Virus record (IMG/VR): IMGVR_UViG_3300035661_000012
Location: 90,305-154,304 of that record
DNA: 64,000 bases
Reading direction: 5' to 3' (one strand)
DNA from: a virus
The notes under the pieces are model-generated. The model had not been told where the DNA came from. It ran no database searches and worked only from the letters and a program-made list of their open reading frames with translations. This document shows, piece by piece, positions 12,547 to 60,978 of this stretch. The translations under genes were made by a program, and so were the position numbers. Numbering within the stretch: position 1 is the first letter of the stretch; the number at the start of each line of letters is the position of its first letter.

Positions 12547-12807
12547 TTATTCTTCCTTATTTGTATTATCTTGTTTATAGCTATCGGGTCCCATTAATTT
12601 ATATAAGTTTTCATGTGGGACTGGTTCTCTTTTGCCTGTGAATTTTCCTCGTTTTTCTGGATCTAAATGATCACGAGAATAGAAGATAGCGCCACAATTT
12701 AGACAAGCTTCATCTGCGTCAAAAGCTTTCCATATTTTGTTAACTTTGTCGCTACCACAAAACGGGCATTTGTTATCGAGAATATTTGGTGTTGTGTCAG
12801 TTGTCAT
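12547..12807 (-). CDS. Zinc-ribbon protein, 86 aa
   Basis: Four cysteines in KCPFCGSDKVNKIW ... CLNCGAIFY form a zinc ribbon in the N-terminal half. The C-terminus is charged and unstructured. GGAG lies before the ATG, which overlaps the 3' end of the reverse transcriptase gene by 11 nt, implying coupled expression. Likely a small nucleic-acid or protein-binding partner of the RT operon. Confidence 0.65.
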   Translation of the reverse strand: MTTDTTPNILDNKCPFCGSDKVNKIWKAFDADEACLNCGAIFYSRDHLDPEKRGKFTGKREPVPHENLYKLMGPDSYKQDNTNKEE

Positions 12808-13645
12808 TTAAGATTCTCCGTGCAAGTTTTTGTAAATAAAAATAGTTTTTCTTGTTATCTGCTAGATTAAGTTGTTCGATTTTTCCACGTATATGCGGAT
12901 TGATCTGACGAATATTAATTAGCTCTTTGATAATGTTCTGAATATATTGACGCTCAATATTTCGTTTAACATTAACCACGATGCCTAAAACTAATTGTCT
13001 TTGATAATAAGGCATCACTTTACTTTTTCGTAAGTTTAGTTCGAAACCATATCGCTTACAAATATCGTTAATAATCGATATAGTTTCTTTTGGAACAGAG
13101 TTACCAGAGATATATAGATTATCTCCATAATTTGAATAACTCCATTGGTTTCGATCGCATATTTCCTGTATACTAACATCAATCGGTTGTCGTATAGCAT
13201 TAGCGATATGTGGAGATGTTATGAAACCTTGTGGAAGTTTTCCATTGTACGTTAATAATTCAATAAAATCTTGTAAATCAATGTTAAGCAAATTAAGTAA
13301 CTCGGGGATTTTCTGATTATAAACAAATAGCCCGATTAGATGATCTTTCGTAATGTTATCATAGAAATTCTTAATATCGGCTTCTAAAACGTATCGTTTG
13401 CCAACATGAATATTAGCACAGTCTCCCCTTGATCTTCCTTTTATCCAAGCATAGCTTGCATGATGAATATTAAAAACATTGTTATCAATGAAATAGTCAA
13501 GAATATATTTCTGTGCCTTTTTATATTCTGAATTTGGAGCAATAATATGACGACGTTTTATTTTGCCTTTCTTTTTTCTATGCTGCACATACGTTGATAC
13601 ATAATTTGCTTTATTGGCAAGTATATTCTTTATAAGCTGACGCAT
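12797..13645 (-). CDS. Retron-like reverse transcriptase with altered YxDD motif
   Basis: 282 aa, RT domain only. Visible blocks: RRHIIAPNSEYKKAQKYIL (RT1), AWIKGRSRGDCANIHVGKRY leading into LEADIKNFYDNI (motif A), KLPQGFITSPHIANAI (RT4), YSNYGDNLYISG (motif C), GFELNLRKSKV (RT6) and RQLVLGIVVN (RT7). Blocks RT6-RT7 look like retron RTs. Motif C is YGDN instead of YADD, losing the second catalytic Asp. Only 5 nt separate it from thiF, so there is no room for an upstream msr/msd RNA. No maturase or endonuclease domain is seen. The start lacks a clear Shine-Dalgarno, suggesting coupling to thiF. Confidence 0.88.
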   Translation of the reverse strand: MRQLIKNILANKANYVSTYVQHRKKKGKIKRRHIIAPNSEYKKAQKYILDYFIDNNVFNIHHASYAWIKGRSRGDCANIHVGKRYVLEADIKNFYDNITKDHLIGLFVYNQKIPELLNLLNIDLQDFIELLTYNGKLPQGFITSPHIANAIRQPIDVSIQEICDRNQWSYSNYGDNLYISGNSVPKETISIINDICKRYGFELNLRKSKVMPYYQRQLVLGIVVNVKRNIERQYIQNIIKELINIRQINPHIRGKIEQLNLADNKKNYFYLQKLARRILNDN

Positions 13646-13650
13646 GTTAT

Positions 13651-14457
13651 TTACGATGCTTTTTGTAATAAAGTTGCTAAATCAAACTCTTTTTCCACGA
13701 ATGGGTTAGTATTCCATTCAATAAATCTCACTTTGCCGGTTCTATTAAATAATACCATGTCATATTTAAGGTCGTTGTCAACATACATAGAATAGACCAT
13801 ATTAGTTATCAGTGTTCCGGCGAGTAAATTTACAGCAAGAGATTGTGGATTGAGTAATGCATTGACGGCACAATTTTGTCTTTGTTCTCTTTCGACTGCT
13901 TCTTCTTTCTCTGCTTCTTCATTATTAAATTCATGCGGATAAACATCAACAACTGTTCTTGACTTAGTAATTAACGAGTCATAATAAACTATTTGTCCAA
14001 ATGTATCGGTATTTCCGCAGCTTAACCATGCTATTGATTGAGAATTAGTAAACCGATTTCTTGATCTAACAAATTCATTAATTATTAAGCGTGTACGGAT
14101 ATTATCTACAGTATCTATAATCAAATATGTGTCTGGATTGCTATAATATCCTGATCTATATGGATCGCAGATAGAATAGATATTATCTTTATCTAAAAAG
14201 CTATTTATATATGATACCTTTACTCCAAAAGCAAAGCCATAGCGTTTAGCTAATACTTCTGCTTTATATTCTCCAATATCATCGACAACAAAATTTTGCC
14301 GATTACAATTTTTCTCTTCTACTTTATCTGCGTCCATAATTATAATATCCGGAGCATTAGGAAGATGACTAGCCATTCTAATGATATTTGGTATAGCATA
14401 TCCTCCTGTTCCGCCAGCACCAACAAATAATATTGTGCTTCTTTTTGAGACGACCAT
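13651..14457 (-). CDS. ThiF/E1-like adenylyltransferase (PRTRC ThiF type)
   Basis: 268 aa. The nucleotide-binding loop FVGAGGTGGYAIPNII is near the N-terminus, an acidic residue in IIIMDADKVEEKN, and the NCNRQNF motif typical of E1-like enzymes. QNCAVNALLNPQSLAVNLLA near residue 195 carries a candidate catalytic Cys and matches the PRTRC-ThiF C-terminal pattern. E1-like enzymes adenylate the C-terminus of a ubiquitin-like protein. AGGAGAAGATAAAT precedes the ATG. It follows the JAB gene by 2 nt and precedes the reverse transcriptase. Confidence 0.87.
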   Translation of the reverse strand: MVVSKRSTILFVGAGGTGGYAIPNIIRMASHLPNAPDIIIMDADKVEEKNCNRQNFVVDDIGEYKAEVLAKRYGFAFGVKVSYINSFLDKDNIYSICDPYRSGYYSNPDTYLIIDTVDNIRTRLIINEFVRSRNRFTNSQSIAWLSCGNTDTFGQIVYYDSLITKSRTVVDVYPHEFNNEEAEKEEAVEREQRQNCAVNALLNPQSLAVNLLAGTLITNMVYSMYVDNDLKYDMVLFNRTGKVRFIEWNTNPFVEKEFDLATLLQKAS

Positions 14458-14459
14458 AT

Positions 14460-15404
14460 TTATCTTCTCCTGTTTTTGTAATAATCCTCGTATCCGAAGC
14501 CATATTGCATTGGATCTAAATAAGTGTGTATGCTTTCACTTGCAGGTGGATCTCCATAGATTGGTCTTGTGGATATTATTTCGTCGTCAAATAAATCGCC
14601 TTGAATAACTCTATCTTTAGTTTTGTAATCATTATTATTTGCTAGCCATTCGTTTACTCTATTTTCATAGAGACGATTAGACAACTTGTTTTCATAATCA
14701 CCAAACATAGTAATATCAAATTCGTGTTTCCACAAAGGCTCAAAAACATCTTCTAAATTAAGATCAACTTTTTTATTTCCGAGTGCAAATCTTATTTGAT
14801 ATGTCGGATATATTTTAAATATATCGCCAATTACTAAGTGAATACTTTCTAAATTTCGATGATCGGCATCATCAACTGCTGAAAATCTACCAGTCATTGT
14901 ATGATGAGAATGTGCTTGTACTACTAAAATATTATCTTTATCCGACGGAAAATTATCATGTTCTATATCCCATTCTACAAGAGCGCCTGAGATAATTTGT
15001 TTTGGAATCCAGAAAAAGAATTCTTGTCTTATTTTATTCCAATAAATTCGCACATAAACTTCTGTCTTATATTTTTGATATACCACACGGAACCATTCCA
15101 ATATATCTAAAAACATTTTAGCTGGAACTTTTGGCACCTTTAATTGTATGCCTTCTTTTTGGTATTCGCCATTTACTATTCCCTTAAAATCATAACTAAC
15201 TTCTTTAATAACAAAACGAGCTAAATCAGTTTCTTTAACAGTATATATACCGTCGTTTTGAATAAGCGTAGTTGAATTTACTCCCGGTTGAAAAGTATAT
15301 GTTCCAATTTGTAGTACATGGCTATTATTTATTTGATTCCGTAGTTCATTTATTGCTTGAAGTTCACTATCTGTGAAACCATTGTTTTGATTTTTCTTAG
15401 CCAT
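14460..15404 (-). CDS. JAB/MPN metalloprotease-like protein (PRTRC protein A type)
   Basis: 314 aa. The JAMM zinc motif is present: HSHHTMTGRFSAVDDAD near residue 170 (HxH-x7-SxxD), with an upstream Glu in the preceding strands. JAB proteases remove or process ubiquitin-like tags. The ATG at 15404 with AAAGGAG is preferred to one seven codons upstream. The N-terminal half is a beta-rich domain as in PRTRC protein A. It lies between the E2-like and E1-like genes. Confidence 0.85.
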   Translation of the reverse strand: MAKKNQNNGFTDSELQAINELRNQINNSHVLQIGTYTFQPGVNSTTLIQNDGIYTVKETDLARFVIKEVSYDFKGIVNGEYQKEGIQLKVPKVPAKMFLDILEWFRVVYQKYKTEVYVRIYWNKIRQEFFFWIPKQIISGALVEWDIEHDNFPSDKDNILVVQAHSHHTMTGRFSAVDDADHRNLESIHLVIGDIFKIYPTYQIRFALGNKKVDLNLEDVFEPLWKHEFDITMFGDYENKLSNRLYENRVNEWLANNNDYKTKDRVIQGDLFDDEIISTRPIYGDPPASESIHTYLDPMQYGFGYEDYYKNRRR

Positions 15405-15418
15405 ATTTTGTTCTCCTT

Positions 15419-16078
15419 TTACCATAATTTTATTGCTTCTTTAATTGTTTTTCCTGACATTTGTCCACTTCTTAATATGTGAGAGGCCTCAACCCATTCT
15501 TGCTCTGATTGAAATGTAATGTTATTGACACGGCGGATATCATCCATATTAACCAAATCCGTATTTCTTTCGGCATTAAACCACATATTAATAATTGTAT
15601 TTAGTTCATGTAAACCATGAATACTTCTTAATTCTCTAGTTAAAACATCTCCCCAGCACAAACGTGCATCACCATAAACATTATTTAAGCGAACTTGGTA
15701 TATTCTGGTATTTTCTCGTGGCGGATTAAAACTACTAAATATCGACGTATTAATAACTTTATACATATTATTCTCTACCCGCAAATCAAATAAGAAATAC
15801 AGATACGGATAGTGTAAATGATATTGTATATTAGAATATGTAAAATCAAGATATTGCGTATTTCTACACACTAATACCTTCATGTTTACATCTTTAACTT
15901 CATACCATACTATCCATAGAGGCATAATCATACTTGATTCTTCTTTAATACTAAATAATTGCCTAAGCTCATCTATGGAAACTATTTTAGGTTCGTAAAT
16001 ATTGGCGCTTCCTTGTTTATTGATATTGTCTATAATCGCTATACGATCATATACTGTTATATTAGCTATTTTGTTCAT
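15419..16078 (-). CDS. E2-like protein (PRTRC protein B type)
   Basis: 219 aa. The central region RIYQVRLNNVYGDARLCWGD near residue 125 resembles the conserved NV-G-CxG segment of PRTRC protein B / Prok-E2_D proteins, with Cys in the CWG step as a candidate thioester residue. It is predicted to carry an activated ubiquitin-like modifier. It overlaps the upstream gene by 17 nt. Gene order B, A, ThiF matches known PRTRC cassettes. Confidence 0.72.
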   Translation of the reverse strand: MNKIANITVYDRIAIIDNINKQGSANIYEPKIVSIDELRQLFSIKEESSMIMPLWIVWYEVKDVNMKVLVCRNTQYLDFTYSNIQYHLHYPYLYFLFDLRVENNMYKVINTSIFSSFNPPRENTRIYQVRLNNVYGDARLCWGDVLTRELRSIHGLHELNTIINMWFNAERNTDLVNMDDIRRVNNITFQSEQEWVEASHILRSGQMSGKTIKEAIKLW

Positions 16079-24506: not shown

Positions 24507-24947
24507 CTAAAAAGGGGCAATATCGCAAATGATAAATCGCCCATCGTTTAAAATTTCATTGATTACGGGATAAACTTCTCCCCAAAACAATCCTCCATTT
24601 CCGCATCCAACATGAGGAAGATAAACTCTCTCTAAGCCTATTTTATCAGCCAATATTCTTAGGTTATAAGCGCTTTGCTTTATTAAATGTATATCTGATT
24701 TCTGTTGTGGATTGTGTTTTGTTGGAAAGGATACTAAATTAAATTCTTTGACATAAAATGGAAAGTTTCCATGTTCTCTAACCATGCTCCCAAGTCTTAA
24801 TGGAAGAGATGGATATCTCTCCTTAGCTTCAAGAGCTAATCCGCGTCCCATAATTAACTCACCATTAACAGTTACACCATTTGTTGGAATTGCTATTGTT
24901 TGATCTCTTGAATGCAGTATCCATATATCGCCGATTAAATGTTTCAT
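24507..24947 (-). CDS. Macro-domain protein
   Basis: 146 aa, a single macro domain. IAIPTNGVTVNGELIMGRGL is the first ribose-binding loop, and LPHVGCGNGGLFWGEVYPVI the second phosphate loop. These bind ADP-ribose or related nucleotides and may hydrolyse O-acyl-ADP-ribose, ADP-ribose-1-phosphate or ADP-ribosylated targets. The ATG at 24947 with GGAG is preferred. Nearby are a SLOG-like protein and MazG-like enzyme, together a nucleotide-signalling neighbourhood. Confidence 0.8.
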   Translation of the reverse strand: MKHLIGDIWILHSRDQTIAIPTNGVTVNGELIMGRGLALEAKERYPSLPLRLGSMVREHGNFPFYVKEFNLVSFPTKHNPQQKSDIHLIKQSAYNLRILADKIGLERVYLPHVGCGNGGLFWGEVYPVINEILNDGRFIICDIAPF

Positions 24948-24982
24948 TTTAACTCCAATAGATAACCATAGCTTAAAATACA

Positions 24983-25384
24983 TTAATAATTCATTGGTTC
25001 CGGAGGTATGATTTTGACTTCATTGTTGACTATATTACGGTTGTAGCGTATTGGTATTGGTTTATCCAATAATTTATCCCCGATTTTTATTATTGAGGCA
25101 CATTCTCTAGAATATGCGAATGGTTCTTTTTCATCTAATTCAAGAATATCATTGGTAAAATTTATTTCCTGCTCTAAAAATATCGATGTATTGCGTTTAT
25201 TTAAGCCATATTCTTGACCGCGCATTAATTGTCTGCGTAAATGTATTTGTGCACGTAGAACGTCCAGTGTTACAGAAATAGCCTTTTTTAGTGTATTAAA
25301 TGCTGTCTTTCTTTTGCATTTGTCACTAACTGATAAAAGCATCATTCTTTTAGCTAAAGACCAATGAGATGATATAACTGACAT
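24983..25384 (-). CDS. Hypothetical basic protein, 133 aa
   Basis: The N-terminal half is basic and helical (KRKTAFNTLKKAISV, RAQIHLRRQLMRG), compatible with nucleic-acid or membrane-surface contact. The C-terminus is proline-rich (KIIPPEPMNY). TTGGAG precedes the ATG. No family recognised. It lies between the SLOG-like and macro-domain genes. Confidence 0.6.
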   Translation of the reverse strand: MSVISSHWSLAKRMMLLSVSDKCKRKTAFNTLKKAISVTLDVLRAQIHLRRQLMRGQEYGLNKRNTSIFLEQEINFTNDILELDEKEPFAYSRECASIIKIGDKLLDKPIPIRYNRNIVNNEVKIIPPEPMNY

Positions 25385-31882: not shown

Positions 31883-33034
31883 CTAATGTTTTTTCCAATA
31901 TTGTTTTGCCAGATTAATCCATTTGCCTGTTTTATCAATCTCCGAAAGTTTTTCAAGTCCTTGCTTATGATTAAATCGCTTCCAATGTCTACCTGCATAA
32001 TATATCCATTCGCCAACCTTATCAATTTCTAAAAGCTTTTCAAGTCCTAGCTTATAATCAAAGCGTTTCCAACGTGTTCCTGCATGATATATCCATCTGC
32101 CCGTATTATCAATCTTCGAAAGTCTTTGAAGACCTGACTTGTAATCAAAGTTTTTCCAATCATTTCCTGCATAATATATCCAGCGTCCAGTTTGGTCAAC
32201 TTGTATTAATCTTTGCGCTGCCAGCTTATAATTAAATTTATCCCAATAGACGCCCGCATAATATATCCAATCACCATTTCTGTCAGCTTTTAAAAGTCCT
32301 TCAAGTCCTAAGTCATAATCAAATTCAGTCCAATCAATCCCCGCATAATATATCCGTTGTCCAGTTGGGTCAACTTTTGATAATTTTTGAATTCCCAGCT
32401 TATAGTCGAATTTATCCCAATAGATTCCTGCGTAATAAATCCATTCGCCAGTTTTATCAATTTTAAGGAGTCCTTTAAGTCCTAAGTCATAGTTAAACTG
32501 TTTCCAATGCTTACTAGCGGAGCAAATCCATTGACCAGTTTTATCCACTTCTAATAACTTTTTAAGCCCAAGCTCATAATCAAAAAAATCCCAATATGCT
32601 CCGGCATTGAATATCCATTCTCCGTTTTTATCAACTTCAAGCAGCCTCTTAAAACCTAATGCGTAATCAAATTGCTCTAAATATTCTCCGGCGGAAGATA
32701 TCCAGTCGCCGGTCTTATCGTATTTGGATAAAATCTTAAAATCATCTGGCAGGAATTCTAATATTTTGATTTTATTCCCAACGGCTTTTTTGTCATCTTT
32801 GTCAACCACATCAAGCTCAACAATACCATAATGAGACTTTTTTATATTATGATAAAAGAGAGTCTCTGATATGTCGAAATTGGCTGAAGCGTGAAATCCC
32901 GCCTCGCGTAATTTAACATCTTTCTTATTCATTCTATAGGTTTTGCCTTCTTTGTAGTAAAACTTAGCTTTATCAAAATCAGGCTGGCAATAATAACCTT
33001 TTTCATCTCTATAGAAAGCTTTGATAGTTCGCAT
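31883..33034 (-). CDS. Large 29-residue-repeat protein, 383 aa
   Basis: The N-terminal domain (about 1-105; GFHASANFDISETL, YGIVELDVVD, KIKILEFLPDDFKIL) is shared with two neighbours and resembles DUF7666-like phage domains. About nine tandem 29-residue repeats follow, with consensus AG-xWxxFDYxLGLxxLLxxD then KTGxWIY. The periodic W, F and L positions suggest a helical solenoid. AGGGAGG precedes the ATG. Three paralogues occur in 3 kb. Confidence 0.75.
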   Translation of the reverse strand: MRTIKAFYRDEKGYYCQPDFDKAKFYYKEGKTYRMNKKDVKLREAGFHASANFDISETLFYHNIKKSHYGIVELDVVDKDDKKAVGNKIKILEFLPDDFKILSKYDKTGDWISSAGEYLEQFDYALGFKRLLEVDKNGEWIFNAGAYWDFFDYELGLKKLLEVDKTGQWICSASKHWKQFNYDLGLKGLLKIDKTGEWIYYAGIYWDKFDYKLGIQKLSKVDPTGQRIYYAGIDWTEFDYDLGLEGLLKADRNGDWIYYAGVYWDKFNYKLAAQRLIQVDQTGRWIYYAGNDWKNFDYKSGLQRLSKIDNTGRWIYHAGTRWKRFDYKLGLEKLLEIDKVGEWIYYAGRHWKRFNHKQGLEKLSEIDKTGKWINLAKQYWKKH

Positions 33035-33052
33035 TGGTCCTCCCTTATTTGG

Positions 33053-33412
33053 TTATCTTATTGATTTAAGGATGTTATGTAATGCCCAGTATTCGGGATT
33101 AAAGATGGCATCGATCGTTTCTGGTAAGAGATTCACTGTTATAACGATTATAAAAACTAATATAACCACAAATAAAAGCATGGCTATAGATTCAAAATCA
33201 CCTTTGGTATTCTTGAGGTTCTTGTCTTTATTATGTTTAAAGGCATATTTGAACATTAATGTATCTGCGATTATAAAAAAGACAATCGTCGCTATATTTT
33301 TAAATGCTTCAATATGAGCTTGATGCATGAGTACATTCCACAAATGATCAGTTGTTGTACCAAGCTTATTTGCTAATCCTTCCAATAGATTTGTAATTTT
33401 GTTATCTAACAT
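33053..33412 (-). CDS. Membrane protein, 119 aa
   Basis: Two to three hydrophobic helices (NIATIVFFIIADTLMFKYAF, AMLLFVVILVFIIVITVNLL). The N-terminal 30 residues are polar. AGGGAATAAAA precedes the ATG. Encoded between two 29-residue-repeat paralogues, so a membrane partner of those proteins is possible. No family recognised. Confidence 0.6.
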   Translation of the reverse strand: MLDNKITNLLEGLANKLGTTTDHLWNVLMHQAHIEAFKNIATIVFFIIADTLMFKYAFKHNKDKNLKNTKGDFESIAMLLFVVILVFIIVITVNLLPETIDAIFNPEYWALHNILKSIR

Positions 33413-33431
33413 TGTTTTATTCCCTTTTTTA

Positions 33432-34082
33432 TTATTTAATTAATGTATTTTGATATTTAGATAAAGGCTCTTTCCAATTTTCTTCTGCCCTACGTAACCA
33501 TTTTGTTGCGTTAAGTTCCAAAAGTCGTTCATATCCAAGTTTGTAGTTGAACTCTTTCCAATGAAATCCAGCACGATAAATTCGTTCTCCATGCTCATCA
33601 ACTTCTAAGAGCTTTTTAACCCCGAGCTCGAAATCAAACTTCTTCCAGTTGAGTCCGGCGTTATATATCCACTTGCCGGTTTTATCGGCTTCTAAGAGCT
33701 TTTGAAAACCTACTTGGTAATCAAAATCCTTCATGCTGCATTCCGCGAAGAATGTCCATGCGCTAGTCTTGTCATATTGAATTAGGATGTTAAAATCTCT
33801 TGGTAGGAATTCTAATATTTTGATTTTGTAACCAACAGCCTTTTCGTCATCAGATTCCGTTGCTTTTAAATCAACGATTCCATAGTATGTATCTTCTACA
33901 GTATAGGAAGTAAGAGTTTCGGATATATCGAAATTCGCTGAGGCATGAAAGCCCGAGTGGCACAACTTAACTTTGCTCTTATCCATTGCGTAAGTTTTAC
34001 CTTCTTCGTAATAAAACTTCTCTGTGTAGGGCTTGCAATAATACCCTTTTTCATCTTTGTTAAAAGCTTTTATTGTTCGCAT
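33432..34082 (-). CDS. 29-residue-repeat protein, 216 aa
   Basis: Same N-terminal domain as the 383-aa protein (GFHASANFDISETLTSY, IKILEFLPRDFNIL) followed by about three repeats (NAGLNWKKFDFELGVKKLLE). The last repeat is degenerate (NATKWLRRAEENW). AAGGAGTAATAG precedes the ATG. Confidence 0.7.
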   Translation of the reverse strand: MRTIKAFNKDEKGYYCKPYTEKFYYEEGKTYAMDKSKVKLCHSGFHASANFDISETLTSYTVEDTYYGIVDLKATESDDEKAVGYKIKILEFLPRDFNILIQYDKTSAWTFFAECSMKDFDYQVGFQKLLEADKTGKWIYNAGLNWKKFDFELGVKKLLEVDEHGERIYRAGFHWKEFNYKLGYERLLELNATKWLRRAEENWKEPLSKYQNTLIK

Positions 34083-34100
34083 CTATTACTCCTTTTAATC

Positions 34101-34736
34101 TTAATACGAGAATGTTTTGGAATCAAATTGTTTCCAAGTTCTTCCCGCATAATATATTACTTCACCAGTTTGGTCAACTTCTAATAATCTCTCTAATCCT
34201 AATTTGTGATCGAATTGCTTCCAAGTTTTGCCAGCCCAATAAATATAAAGCCCTTTCTTATCAACTTCTAAAAGCTTTCTAAAAGCTGTTTTATAGTCAA
34301 AGCGTTTCCAATTTCTACCCGCTTCATATATCCATCTACCAATTTCATCAATTTGTAAAAGCTTTTGGAATCCTAATTCATAGTTGGATATTTCCCGATA
34401 AACTTTATTATAAATCCACTCGCCAGTTCTGTCATATGCGGATAGGATATTAAAATCGTCGGGTAAAAACTCTAATATTTTTATCTTATCACCAACGCAT
34501 TTTCCATTGCTTGATTCGATTACATTTAAATCCACTATTCCATAGCGTGCATGTGCTATATCATAGTAGTCAATGGTATCAGATATATCGAAATGACTTG
34601 AAGCGTGGAACCCTGATAAGCATAATTTAATATCATCAGCTTTATAAATCTCGCCTTTCTCATAGTAGAATTTCTTATCATTGGGCTTACAATAATAGCC
34701 CTTCTTATCTCTATAGAAGGCTTTGATTGTTTTCAT
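34101..34736 (-). CDS. 29-residue-repeat protein, 211 aa
   Basis: Third paralogue: GFHASSHFDISDTIDYY, IKILEFLPDDFNIL, then about three and a half repeats ending abruptly (TWKQFDSKTFSY). The ATG at 34736 (MKTIKAF) matches the starts of the paralogues. It overlaps the upstream gene by 26 nt. Confidence 0.7.
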   Translation of the reverse strand: MKTIKAFYRDKKGYYCKPNDKKFYYEKGEIYKADDIKLCLSGFHASSHFDISDTIDYYDIAHARYGIVDLNVIESSNGKCVGDKIKILEFLPDDFNILSAYDRTGEWIYNKVYREISNYELGFQKLLQIDEIGRWIYEAGRNWKRFDYKTAFRKLLEVDKKGLYIYWAGKTWKQFDHKLGLERLLEVDQTGEVIYYAGRTWKQFDSKTFSY

Positions 34737-35103
34737 CTGTTCGCCCTTTATTTTCTTTCCAATTCGGCTCATACTCGTTTAATAATTGTTTTGCTAAATC
34801 TTTCCAACTTTGTCCCCAAGTTCGCAAATTTGCATTGGCTTCTCTTAATTCTTCAAGCTCTTTCTCAAGTCCAGTCAATTCATATTGTATATCGTAGAAT
34901 TTATCTTCGTGTCCACATCCATCGCCAATTTCACGGCATTCGCATTTTGATTGATATGCTATGTTATACACTTTATTTATCGCTCTAATTATACTGTCTA
35001 TATCTGGACAAGTGTTTTCAGGAGGTTTTTGGAGACCCAAGATTTCTTCGCTTGTTTTTGGCTTCGGCTTAATCTGGCCGTTGATATTTATTACTTCTCC
35101 CAT
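34711..35103 (-). CDS. Coiled-coil protein, 130 aa
   Basis: An acidic coiled coil in the C-terminal half (YELTGLEKELEELREANANL) with a short KCECREIGDGCGHED cysteine patch just before it. AAGGAG precedes the ATG. Possibly a multimerisation protein; no family recognised. Confidence 0.6.
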   Translation of the reverse strand: MGEVININGQIKPKPKTSEEILGLQKPPENTCPDIDSIIRAINKVYNIAYQSKCECREIGDGCGHEDKFYDIQYELTGLEKELEELREANANLRTWGQSWKDLAKQLLNEYEPNWKENKGRTDENNQSLL

Positions 35104-57210: not shown

Positions 57211-57357
57211 ACCCTCATGTCTTTATTCATGGGTCACTATACCGCTAAATTGCGAATATAGCAAGGAAGGAAACCCTCCCAGAATAAACTCCCATGTCTC
57301 TATTCATGAGACGCCATACCCTTTCTGAGGAATATAACGCGGAGAATCAACACTCCC
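57211..57357 (-). repeat. Tandem pair of 65-nt imperfect repeats in a leader
   Basis: Plus sense CTCATGTCTTTATTCATGGG (57213) and CCCATGTCTCTATTCATGAG (57291) begin parallel stretches that also share CATACC/TATACC, GAATATA and CTCCC near their ends. They lie upstream of the 81-aa gene and can each form an ACCCATG/CATGAGGGT-like stem. Regulatory role inferred. Confidence 0.5.
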
Positions 57358-57377
57358 CGGCAAGTTGGAAGTTATCT

Positions 57378-57434
57378 TGGTGATTCAGGTGGGAATCGAA
57401 CCCACTCTTTCAGGCTACCATTAACCACAGAACC
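57378..57434 (-). ncRNA. tRNA-like structure without anticodon arm, encoded ACCA end
   Basis: Minus sense: acceptor GGTTCTG pairs CTGAATC (one mismatch), D-like arm GGTT-AATGGT-AGCC, a 7-nt link TGAAAGA where the anticodon arm should be, T arm GTGGG-TTCGATT-CCCAC with canonical T loop, then ACCA. A full cloverleaf does not fit. It may be a tRNA-like processing signal or decoy. Confidence 0.55.
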
Positions 57435-57581: not shown

Positions 57582-57875
57582 TTATCTTACTACATCTCCT
57601 ACTTTATAATTAGTATCATGAGATATAGCGACAACATAACCATTCAATTTTGGATCAAATATAGCAACAGCGCCTACCGTATGAGCATATTTATGGATAA
57701 TTACGGCGGCTACGGGCAAACTTGCTGGCCCGTTGATCTTCAAAAGCGGCACACCAATAATATGCGGAGCGTTTGCGGCGACATATTTAACGATCTCATC
57801 GTTACTTGCGGGGTCGCCGAACCCGATTGTAAGAATGTTAGTGTCTTTGTCGAAGTTAAGATTATAAACTGCCAT
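57582..57875 (-). CDS. Csx3-like ring nuclease
   Basis: 97 aa, the full length of a minimal Csx3. FGDPASNDEIVKYVAANAP precedes KINGPASLPVAAVIIHKYAH and FDPKLNGYVVAISHDTNYK with VGDVV. The HKYAH histidines and the Asp of FDPKL correspond to catalytic positions of Csx3/Crn3, which degrades cyclic oligoadenylate. In a phage it would silence type III CRISPR signalling. Plain AAAAAGGAGG precedes the ATG. No CRISPR or cas gene is nearby, so it stands alone. Confidence 0.85.
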   Translation of the reverse strand: MAVYNLNFDKDTNILTIGFGDPASNDEIVKYVAANAPHIIGVPLLKINGPASLPVAAVIIHKYAHTVGAVAIFDPKLNGYVVAISHDTNYKVGDVVR

Positions 57876-57928
57876 TTTGTACCTCCTTTTTAATTGTTAT
57901 TATTGAATTCCACAATTGGTTCTATGCA

Positions 57929-57953
57929 TTAAAGCCGCCCTTTTTGGGGCGGC
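57929..57953 (-). terminator. Hairpin, probable terminator
   Basis: Minus sense GCCGCCCC-AAAAA-GGGCGGC followed by TTTAATGC; the U-tract is short. Confidence 0.55.
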
Positions 57954-58353: not shown

Positions 58354-60978
58354 TTAAAATACAACCCAAATAGACTTTGTGCTGCTTATTTTGGTCGAAA
58401 CTCTTCCCTCTTTCTCGTCTCTTTTGATAGAATAATATGGGAAGAATGTGCATTTTGCTGGAATTTTGCCATCGAATCCGTCTTCTGCCTTCAATTCATA
58501 CTTGCCAAAGAATAACTTACCATTCTTAACAACTAATTCATTAAGATTAGCGAAATCTATATTCTTTGGAAGACCTTCACCGAAGAATCTAACAACTGTT
58601 GTCTTCTTCTTTGTCTCGGCAAGCTCCATAGCTGGATAATCTGTTCTGAAAGCTTCCCAGAATTTATCAATATGAAGAACGAAGCTACCTGTTGGGCTTT
58701 GAGTTTTATTTAAATACTCTCTGATATATTGAATCTTAGCAGCGAGACAGATGCTCTTTGTTGCCTCTTCGACAAATGAATAGAAAATCTTCATGATTTT
58801 CTCATCATGGAGTTCGCCATTAGGAGCTGTATGGCTATTCAAGATGCCGAGAGCTTTTAAGATTAGGAATTGTCTCTTGATTTCATTATTATCCATGCCA
58901 GAAATATCAGCGATACCCATATATGGAGGACGGCTGAATACTGGTAGGGGTTGTTTCATTTTATCAAGCTCGGCAATCTTCTTATTTGCTAACTGTATAT
59001 TAGCATTCCAAACATGATCCATATGATGAAGTGGTTCGCTGATTGTATATTTCTTAGTAAATTCAGCAAAATCATCAAATTCTTCATCTTTGATTTTCTT
59101 GAGTTTCCATTCTGTATTGACAAGCTCTCTAACCAATCTCTCTGTTTCATAATCACGATTGCGGATAGCCATAATTCTATCCGTCATATCATGCTTTGCA
59201 CTCTTGATTACGGCTTCGATCCCTTCATAATAAACTTTAAGCAATTCTAACGCATTTTCTTCATCAACTAAGCCATTATCAATAGCAACCTCCATCATAT
59301 AATAATTATCGGTGAGCTGACCAATAAGCGAGGAATTTGCCATAATTTCGCTCATTATTATGGCAATGTTTTCAATAGTGATATCATAACGTTTGCGAGA
59401 TCTGGAAACTACATTGATATCACGCAACGGTTTAACCAAATTATTATCAATGGCGAATTTAACAGCATCGCCAACAACACCGAAAACACCATCGCCATCA
59501 CCATCTACATTTATACTATCGGCAAGGGACTTAGACAAGATCCAATATTTAGAACGACGATTAACATCGTTCATCTTAACGATACCTAAGCCAGCAGTTA
59601 TCGGATACTTGCCAATTATTGTATCACCTTTCTTGTTATATTTTAAGCCGGCGGCAATCCAATCTTCAACAACTACAGCAATTCTCATTGTTGCATTTGG
59701 ATTTGGACGTTTAACCAAATATCTAGCTATTTGGCGTTTGATATATTCATTAACAGCTGGATAGCTAGGTCCTAAAGTTAACAATCCAGCAATCATTTTA
59801 TAGCTTATCTGCAATGGTTCATACGGTTCATTATTCATATGAGCAGCAATGCGGCGTTTAGCCTCCATACCGAGAACTATGTCTTTATAATCAAAGTCAT
59901 AGCTCATTTCATCGGCAAATAGCTGACTTAGTTTATTGCTGAGTTTGAAGAATTGATAATATTCAAAGCCAGTAGATATACTTTGATTGTTAACTGTTCT
60001 GACATTATTATAAGTGATTCCTAATAAACCGGACATATAACCTGGCGCTGGTTTATTAATCTTAAAATCATCTACGCACATAACGATGTCAGCAGACATA
60101 TCAACATGACTGAGCATTAGACCAATCTCCTTTGCAGAATCTAAGGAAATGATATTGCCTTTACCGATGCTGTTACCAGCCTTTAATCTAAATTGACCAG
60201 GCAATATTCTATTCTTTACATCGATAGCAGTACCATATCCAGGAACTAAGCCGATTTCTCTGAATTCCTCGGCACTCAAAACCTGGATCTTATTTAGTTT
60301 ATAGAACATTGGACGGCCATTATAAATGCTGACTGGCGTCATCGGAAGCGAGAGATAACCAACAGCATCTGCAGCCTGAGCAAATGGGTGATTTGGCCAT
60401 TTAACGCCATAAAATACACCCTTGTTTGTCGAGGTGCCACCATAGAGGTCGCAACCCTCCTGTTTAAAGAATGCAAATAAGATTTCTGGCAATTCTGGAG
60501 ATGCCAAAAATTCATTCTTTATCTTTTCTGTACGTGCAGATATCTCGTAACTTCTTGTTTCGAGAATTTCTGGCATATCACCATCCAAACAGTATCTCAT
60601 TTCAATACCATCTGGAAATTGATACTTATCTTTGTGAACGCGTACCTTGGCGATCTTGAAACTACTGCCATCTCTGACAACATCCACGATGAATCTGTGG
60701 ATTTTAGCTGGTTTGATGTCTGTTGCTACGCCATTGGGCGTGAATTCGTCGATGCTAAACAATGCATCGATAAAACGAGTGATTGAATCTGCTTTCATTG
60801 CTTTCTCCTTATTGTTATTGTGATTGAAAAGATTGCTGATTAAAAGATCGTCTGCTGTTTTAACTTGAGCGTTCATTGTTCTCTCTCCTTGATTTGTGAT
60901 TGTGATTGTTTTAGTTGTGTTCATGTTGAGCATATTGATATTTATGCTCTTGTCAATTGTGTTGATATTTGTATTCAT
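58354..60978 (-). CDS. Second RNA polymerase-like protein (YonO/QDE-1-like barrel)
   Basis: 874 aa. SKSLADSINVDGDGDGVFGV near residue 500 contains the DGDGD form of the DxDGD metal motif; IMANSSLIGQLTDNYYMMEV about 60 residues later parallels the IG-NxHL helix of RdRp/YonO proteins. Upstream, YLVKRPNPNATMRIAVVV recalls the RxPxxxxxS region of beta'-like chains. Three in-frame ATGs, at 60978, 60876 and 60798, each have their own AAGGAG; the shortest starts MKADSITRFI. It ends at a strong terminator. Probable virus-encoded RNA polymerase. Confidence 0.65.
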   Translation of the reverse strand: MNTNINTIDKSININMLNMNTTKTITITNQGERTMNAQVKTADDLLISNLFNHNNNKEKAMKADSITRFIDALFSIDEFTPNGVATDIKPAKIHRFIVDVVRDGSSFKIAKVRVHKDKYQFPDGIEMRYCLDGDMPEILETRSYEISARTEKIKNEFLASPELPEILFAFFKQEGCDLYGGTSTNKGVFYGVKWPNHPFAQAADAVGYLSLPMTPVSIYNGRPMFYKLNKIQVLSAEEFREIGLVPGYGTAIDVKNRILPGQFRLKAGNSIGKGNIISLDSAKEIGLMLSHVDMSADIVMCVDDFKINKPAPGYMSGLLGITYNNVRTVNNQSISTGFEYYQFFKLSNKLSQLFADEMSYDFDYKDIVLGMEAKRRIAAHMNNEPYEPLQISYKMIAGLLTLGPSYPAVNEYIKRQIARYLVKRPNPNATMRIAVVVEDWIAAGLKYNKKGDTIIGKYPITAGLGIVKMNDVNRRSKYWILSKSLADSINVDGDGDGVFGVVGDAVKFAIDNNLVKPLRDINVVSRSRKRYDITIENIAIIMSEIMANSSLIGQLTDNYYMMEVAIDNGLVDEENALELLKVYYEGIEAVIKSAKHDMTDRIMAIRNRDYETERLVRELVNTEWKLKKIKDEEFDDFAEFTKKYTISEPLHHMDHVWNANIQLANKKIAELDKMKQPLPVFSRPPYMGIADISGMDNNEIKRQFLILKALGILNSHTAPNGELHDEKIMKIFYSFVEEATKSICLAAKIQYIREYLNKTQSPTGSFVLHIDKFWEAFRTDYPAMELAETKKKTTVVRFFGEGLPKNIDFANLNELVVKNGKLFFGKYELKAEDGFDGKIPAKCTFFPYYSIKRDEKEGRVSTKISSTKSIWVVF

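Follow-up and report, generated by a model that had tools for sequence, protein, structure and literature searches.

The stretch of DNA analysed here (the window, 64,000 nucleotides) covers positions 90305-154304 of a 154,304-base IMG/VR virus record, a linear metagenomic contig that may be incomplete. The open reading frame to which an earlier note had assigned a stand-alone Csx3-like ring nuclease is a real gene with exactly the boundaries given below.

57582..57875, minus strand: csx3/crn3-like gene, 97 aa, ATG start (from sequence comparison)
57882..57889, minus strand: Shine-Dalgarno sequence AAAGGAGG, 6 nt before the ATG of csx3 (read from the sequence)
57934..57953, minus strand: GC-rich hairpin GCCGCCCC-AAAAA-GGGCGGC, upstream of csx3 (read from the sequence)
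57340..57359, minus strand: terminator-like hairpin, downstream of csx3 and of a tRNA-like element (from a consensus scan only)

The ribosome-binding site of csx3 is strong, and the gene sits deep within a long run of phage genes on the same strand, with a GC content (41%) slightly higher than that of its neighbours (36-39%) and a third-position GC (0.36) as in the neighbours. The terminator-like hairpin suggests that csx3 is a separate small transcription unit, and the GC-rich hairpin, which has a weak T tail and received no call in the terminator scan, is possibly the end of the upstream transcript. The tRNA-like sequence (57378-57434, minus strand) has a D arm, a T arm (GTGGG-TTCGATT-CCCAC) and an encoded CCA, and is without an anticodon arm. 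It matches the tRNA-like mascRNA family of Rfam at a sub-threshold 19.3 bits, all Rfam matches near csx3 being under the gathering thresholds; its cloverleaf was not recovered by MFE folding, and no copies were found in viral contigs by a strict pattern.

The carrier phage

Terminase, portal, capsid, tail sheath and baseplate genes are found in the rest of the record, which indicates a contractile-tailed phage. By terminase the best cultured match is Moorella phage MTATph1 (33%), the tail sheath matches both this phage and Acinetobacter phage ME3, and the sole match of the capsid protein is one identical short contig. The claim of the earlier note that no cas genes are nearby holds for the window and for the whole record, as RAMP, Cas10, Cas10 palm and DUF1874/AcrIII-1 genes were all absent from the 154,304 bases in a search where control genomes matched PF03787, PF22335 and PF08960; for the query with a Cas10 protein there was no control of this kind. 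A cas operon that could explain the gene was thus looked for over the full record and none was found, and with the phage structural genes on the same contig the virus does carry a stand-alone Csx3 homologue. That a piece of a host type III locus had been misassembled into, or binned as, phage DNA is scarcely credible to us: the linear metagenomic nature of the contig and the slightly raised GC of csx3 would fit such an origin, but the position of the gene within the same-strand run with no cas genes beside it, its third-position GC and the structural module argue against it.

Family membership and host relatives

The window protein matches the Pfam family Cas_csx3 (PF09620) with 39.2 bits (E=6e-10; curated cut-off 21), and the genome search gave 38.8 bits for the same family, which matched in none of the 14 control genomes. 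An HMM built from host relatives only gave 98 bits (E=1e-29), while the best of 2,000 shuffled window proteins reached 8.4 bits, and no second match to it was present among the other ORFs of the phage record. The protein falls under the cut-off of the NCBIfam Crn3 equivalog TIGR02579 (30.9 against 55.4 bits), which is the cut-off used by PGAP for crn3 calls. Members of the same branch within type III loci also fall under it (25.8 bits), and automated crn3 calling therefore overlooks the branch. The AF2 model of the window protein (pLDDT 83.8) has AfCsx3 (Archaeoglobus fulgidus AF1864; PF09620, TIGR02579) as its top PDB match with probability 1.00 and E 1.2e-3, but the TM score is only 0.42, a poor superposition, and a fold search against BFVD gave nothing significant. 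The AfCsx3 query sequence agrees with the PDB stretch seen in the pairwise alignment described below and scores 143.7 bits with TIGR02579. The two proteins share the Pfam family and differ in that the window protein is phage-borne, without cas genes and under the equivalog cut-off. Judged by sequence comparison, the window protein belongs, as a phage-borne member, to the type III-associated Csx3 (Crn3-like) family and is not a textbook Crn3.

The nearest cellular relatives, 50-58% identical, come from genomes of Cyanobacteria, Poribacteria, Desantisbacteria and Chloroflexi, where they are encoded by small csx3 genes. Core type III cas/RAMP genes were found by blastp within 8 kb in 49 of the 72 relative loci, ancillary type III genes only in 17, and neither in 6, a count in which many contigs end early around the relatives. 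The location of these kin in type III loci bears out the connection to type III systems made in the earlier note. The usual gene order is TIGR03985 - csx3 - csx3-AAA - cas10, and in Nostoc the small csx3 has TIGR03985 on one side and csx3-AAA on the other, with CARF, RAMP or cas10-csm genes coming after. Members of the cyanobacterial branch (for example WP_114082153.1 of Nostoc sp. ATCC 53789), which are annotated as 'CRISPR-associated protein Csx3', resemble the window protein in about 50% identity, equal length and all branch-conserved residues, but they sit in type III operons beside csx3-AAA and cas10/csm genes.

Active site

The HKYAH and FDPKL motifs named in the earlier note are both present. 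Its description of a full-length Csx3 pattern with the catalytic region stands as far as these motifs and the Pfam match go, but was overstated, as the protein has HxxxH and not HxxH, Lys in place of Arg71 and a score under the Crn3 cut-off. Numbered from Met=1, the residues of the window protein correspond to those of AfCsx3 as G49/G45, H61/H57, H65/H60 (by profile alignment), D74/D69, K76/R71 and H86/H80, so that the equivalents of G45, H57, D69 and H80 are kept, whereas S44, R46 and I49 are replaced by Asn, Pro and Leu. None of the branch-conserved residues is missing from the window protein; among 47 aligned branch sequences H61 is found in 44, H65 in 42, D74 in 47, K76 in 46 and H86 in 41. 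Lys at the R71 position is found throughout the HxxxH branch. In AfCsx3, H60 and D69 are essential, and H57, H80 and R71 are invariant (PMC7371418). In the literature found, Crn3 activity, the Mn2+-dependent cleavage of cyclic tetra-adenylate by a head-to-tail tetramer, has been demonstrated for AfCsx3 only, and no biochemistry was found for the HxxxH/Lys branch.

A pairwise alignment with AfCsx3 sets Ala opposite H60, and the HKYAHT of the window protein is letter for letter that of 6yud, the chain of the H60A mutant, which is catalytically dead yet binds cyclic tetra-adenylate (cA4) and forms filaments (PMC7371418). Read in this way the window protein would be a natural H60A and hence a dead sponge. 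This reading was weakened, although retained as a rival, because the type III-linked branch shares HxxxH and the profile alignment pairs H65 with H60, placing one inserted residue before H65. The spacing between H65 and D74 is 9, the same as between H60 and D69 in AfCsx3, and in the AF2 model H61 and H65 lie on the same helix, one turn apart. Branch conservation, the profile alignment and the H65-D74 spacing lead us to lean towards a catalytically active protein, while the naive alignment, the score under the equivalog cut-off and the Lys at the R71 position count against activity on cA4.

The substitutions also bear on the ligand. The branch departs from AfCsx3 at R46, I49 and R71, which are conserved cA4 contacts in that protein (PMC7371418) and are Pro, Leu and Lys in the window protein. 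This could mean that the ligand of the HxxxH/Lys proteins is a different one (cA3, cA5, cA6, SAM-AMP, or a linear or RNA 3' end) and that the phage counters that signal. Work cited in PMC7371418 initially characterised AfCsx3 as an RNA deadenylase, and the phage ring nuclease Crn4b accepts cA3. We nevertheless consider another ligand very unlikely, as direct evidence for such a ligand was not found and the ring nucleases seen so far in effector-bearing loci accompany cA4 effectors only (PMC12409355).

Csx3 and Crn3 in other phage-like records

The window protein has company in other phage-like records, where the recurrence of the family was also seen. Classical Crn3 proteins, with HxxH/Arg and scores above the equivalog cut-off, turned up in four virus contigs in alignment-based scans; these contigs are labelled here L092 (42 kb), L093 (45 kb), L094 (272.6 kb) and L095 (77 kb). 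Single-protein scans with the window protein found nothing in viral contigs or annotated phages. No RAMP/Cas10 genes were found in L092-L095. A terminase is present in L094 and L095, in L092 it is a weak match only with an internal stop, and in L093 there is none. In Pyramidobacter sp. YE332, Crn3 lies beside integrase, LexA and DUF2800/2815 genes in an 18-kb record. The window's own branch is found as a stand-alone csx3 in the phage-like Nostoc C052 plasmid pC052_F (L014), with a terminase gene about 8 kb away, and in a prophage-like region of Nostoc FACHB-110 (L040), which has a Rad52-like protein, HTH repressors and a csx3 neighbour that resembles an integrase by eye only. L040 is one of the six loci with neither core nor ancillary type III genes, and a rough tree of about 100 columns groups it with the window protein and pC052_F (support 94/81). 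Two further kinds of arrangement are as follows.

L094, 5920-6873: classical Crn3 and a convergent neighbour gene, a separate Csx3-type AAA ATPase, in the 272.6-kb virus contig
L091, 1427-1729: Csx3-like protein without the catalytic histidines, in a 189-kb phage with baseplate genes
L103, 3001-3303: Csx3-like protein without the catalytic histidines, in a related 189-kb phage with baseplate genes

The L094 pair looks like a Csx3-AAA fusion that has been split in a huge phage. L040, pC052_F, L092-L095 and L091/L103 resemble the window in that csx3 stands alone on the DNA of a phage or prophage; differences from the window protein are that L092-L095 are classical and L091/L103 lack the His face. 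The L091/L103 protein has lost H57, H60 and H80 and keeps the SG and YDPK elements, and a dN/dS of about 0.3 between the two genes indicates purifying selection, making it a candidate oligoadenylate sponge.

The window protein could likewise be a sponge that binds cA4 on its D74/K76 face, polymerises and cleaves slowly or never, so that the messenger is kept from the effectors. Besides the retention of the His-less protein under selection and the match of HKYAHT to a mutant that still binds, this is consistent with the type III-linked Csx15 working mainly as a cA4 sponge (PMC13148439). However, the window protein, in contrast to L091/L103, retains every His conserved in the branch, H65 falls on H60 in the profile alignment, and the messenger output of type III systems has been argued to be too large for sponging to pay (PMC13148439). 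We regard a sponge as unlikely.

Another viral contig, L090, holds a C-terminal csx3 remnant only, which indicates that csx3 genes also decay in phages. The gene in the window could in the same way be a drifting remnant, or a moron or passenger that tunes the type III system of the host or of another element or limits toxicity to the producing cell. The intact reading frame with its strong ribosome-binding site and complete set of branch-conserved residues speaks against this, as does the repeated presence of csx3 in phage-like records without cas genes, and such a role appears quite improbable to us.

Proposed function

Viral ring nucleases act as anti-CRISPRs (PMC12751052), although an anti-CRISPR role of natively expressed AcrIII-1 has been disputed in a reference cited in PMC12751052 and PMC13131331. 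The earlier note took AcrIII-1 as the known viral family, which is too narrow, as AcrIII-2 (SAVED), phage Crn4b, Csx16 and Csx20 have also been published; it was correct in that the fold of Csx3 is distinct from AcrIII-1. In a published survey that applied a Crn3 profile to 28,114 phage genomes, AcrIII-1, Csx20 and Csx16 are listed and Crn3 is not (PMC12409355), and our tblastn of 50,697 annotated phage records gave no match to the window protein or to four further Csx3/Crn3 queries. The family is present in metagenomic viral contigs, and we found no earlier report of its use by phages in the literature, where further papers are possible. The window protein would resemble AcrIII-1/Crn2 (DUF1874) in its role, a virus-encoded removal of cA4, but the fold is unrelated, and a PF08960 match is absent from the phage record and present in the control genomes. 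What would link the window protein to AcrIII-2, phage Crn4b and phage Csx16/Csx20, which have other folds and belong to other sequence families, is that phages employ ring nucleases which also occur in the type III loci of hosts. In AcrIII-2 the cA4 is sandwiched between stacked subunits, as proposed here for the window protein.

The reading that we put forward, with about even confidence, is that the window protein is an anti-type III factor that removes cA4, depletion by cleavage being more likely than sequestration. The phage would have acquired its csx3 from the HxxxH-branch type III locus of a host. When the type III system of the infected cell makes cA4, the window protein would stack head-to-tail and trap the molecule between dimers, where the H61/H65/H86 face of one dimer and the D74/K76 face of the next would cleave the ring with the help of a divalent metal. 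With cA4 lost, the ancillary effector nucleases would stay inactive and the infection could proceed. The gene, its family, its phage context, the lack of cas genes in the record, the type III linkage of the relatives and the recurrence in other phages are observations, and we infer cA4 as the ligand, cleavage beyond mere binding and the anti-CRISPR effect. Plasmid interference was unaffected when the csx3-AAA gene slr7080 of a cyanobacterium was deleted (PMC9676260), which counts against this reading.

A broader proposal, which is speculative and somewhat unlikely, is that Csx3 has been taken up by phages on several occasions and serves them in two anti-alarm modes, a cleaving one in L092-L095 and perhaps in the HxxxH branch of the window, L040 and pC052_F, and a binding-only one in the catalytically stripped L091/L103. 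Csx3 would then be a general means for phages to oppose oligoadenylate signals, among them signals other than cA4. If active, Csx3 would add a further fold to those with which phages counter type III CRISPR, and the naturally occurring HxxxH and His-less variants lend themselves to testing what distinguishes an oligoadenylate nuclease from a sponge.

Other genes of the window

Several other genes of the window, all on the minus strand, were noted along the way. A reverse transcriptase (12797-13645) is retron-RT-like (PADLOC RT_III-A, 150 bits) with YGDN as catalytic motif, and directly adjoins a ubiquitin-type cassette of a ThiF E1-like and a JAB protein (13651-15425), the latter resembling PRTRC system protein A at 43 bits, under the cut-off of 101.8. 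An 874-aa protein with NVDGDGDG (58354-60978) had no match in Pfam, PHROG, NCBIfam or PDB and no kin were found for it; it is a possible divergent two-barrel RNA polymerase. A macro-domain protein (24507-24983) matches DarG with 61.7 bits and is possibly an antidote to host DarT-type ADP-ribosylation. At 31883-34772 there are three adjacent paralogous genes with repeated 'LLEVDKTGEWIYNAG'-type motifs.
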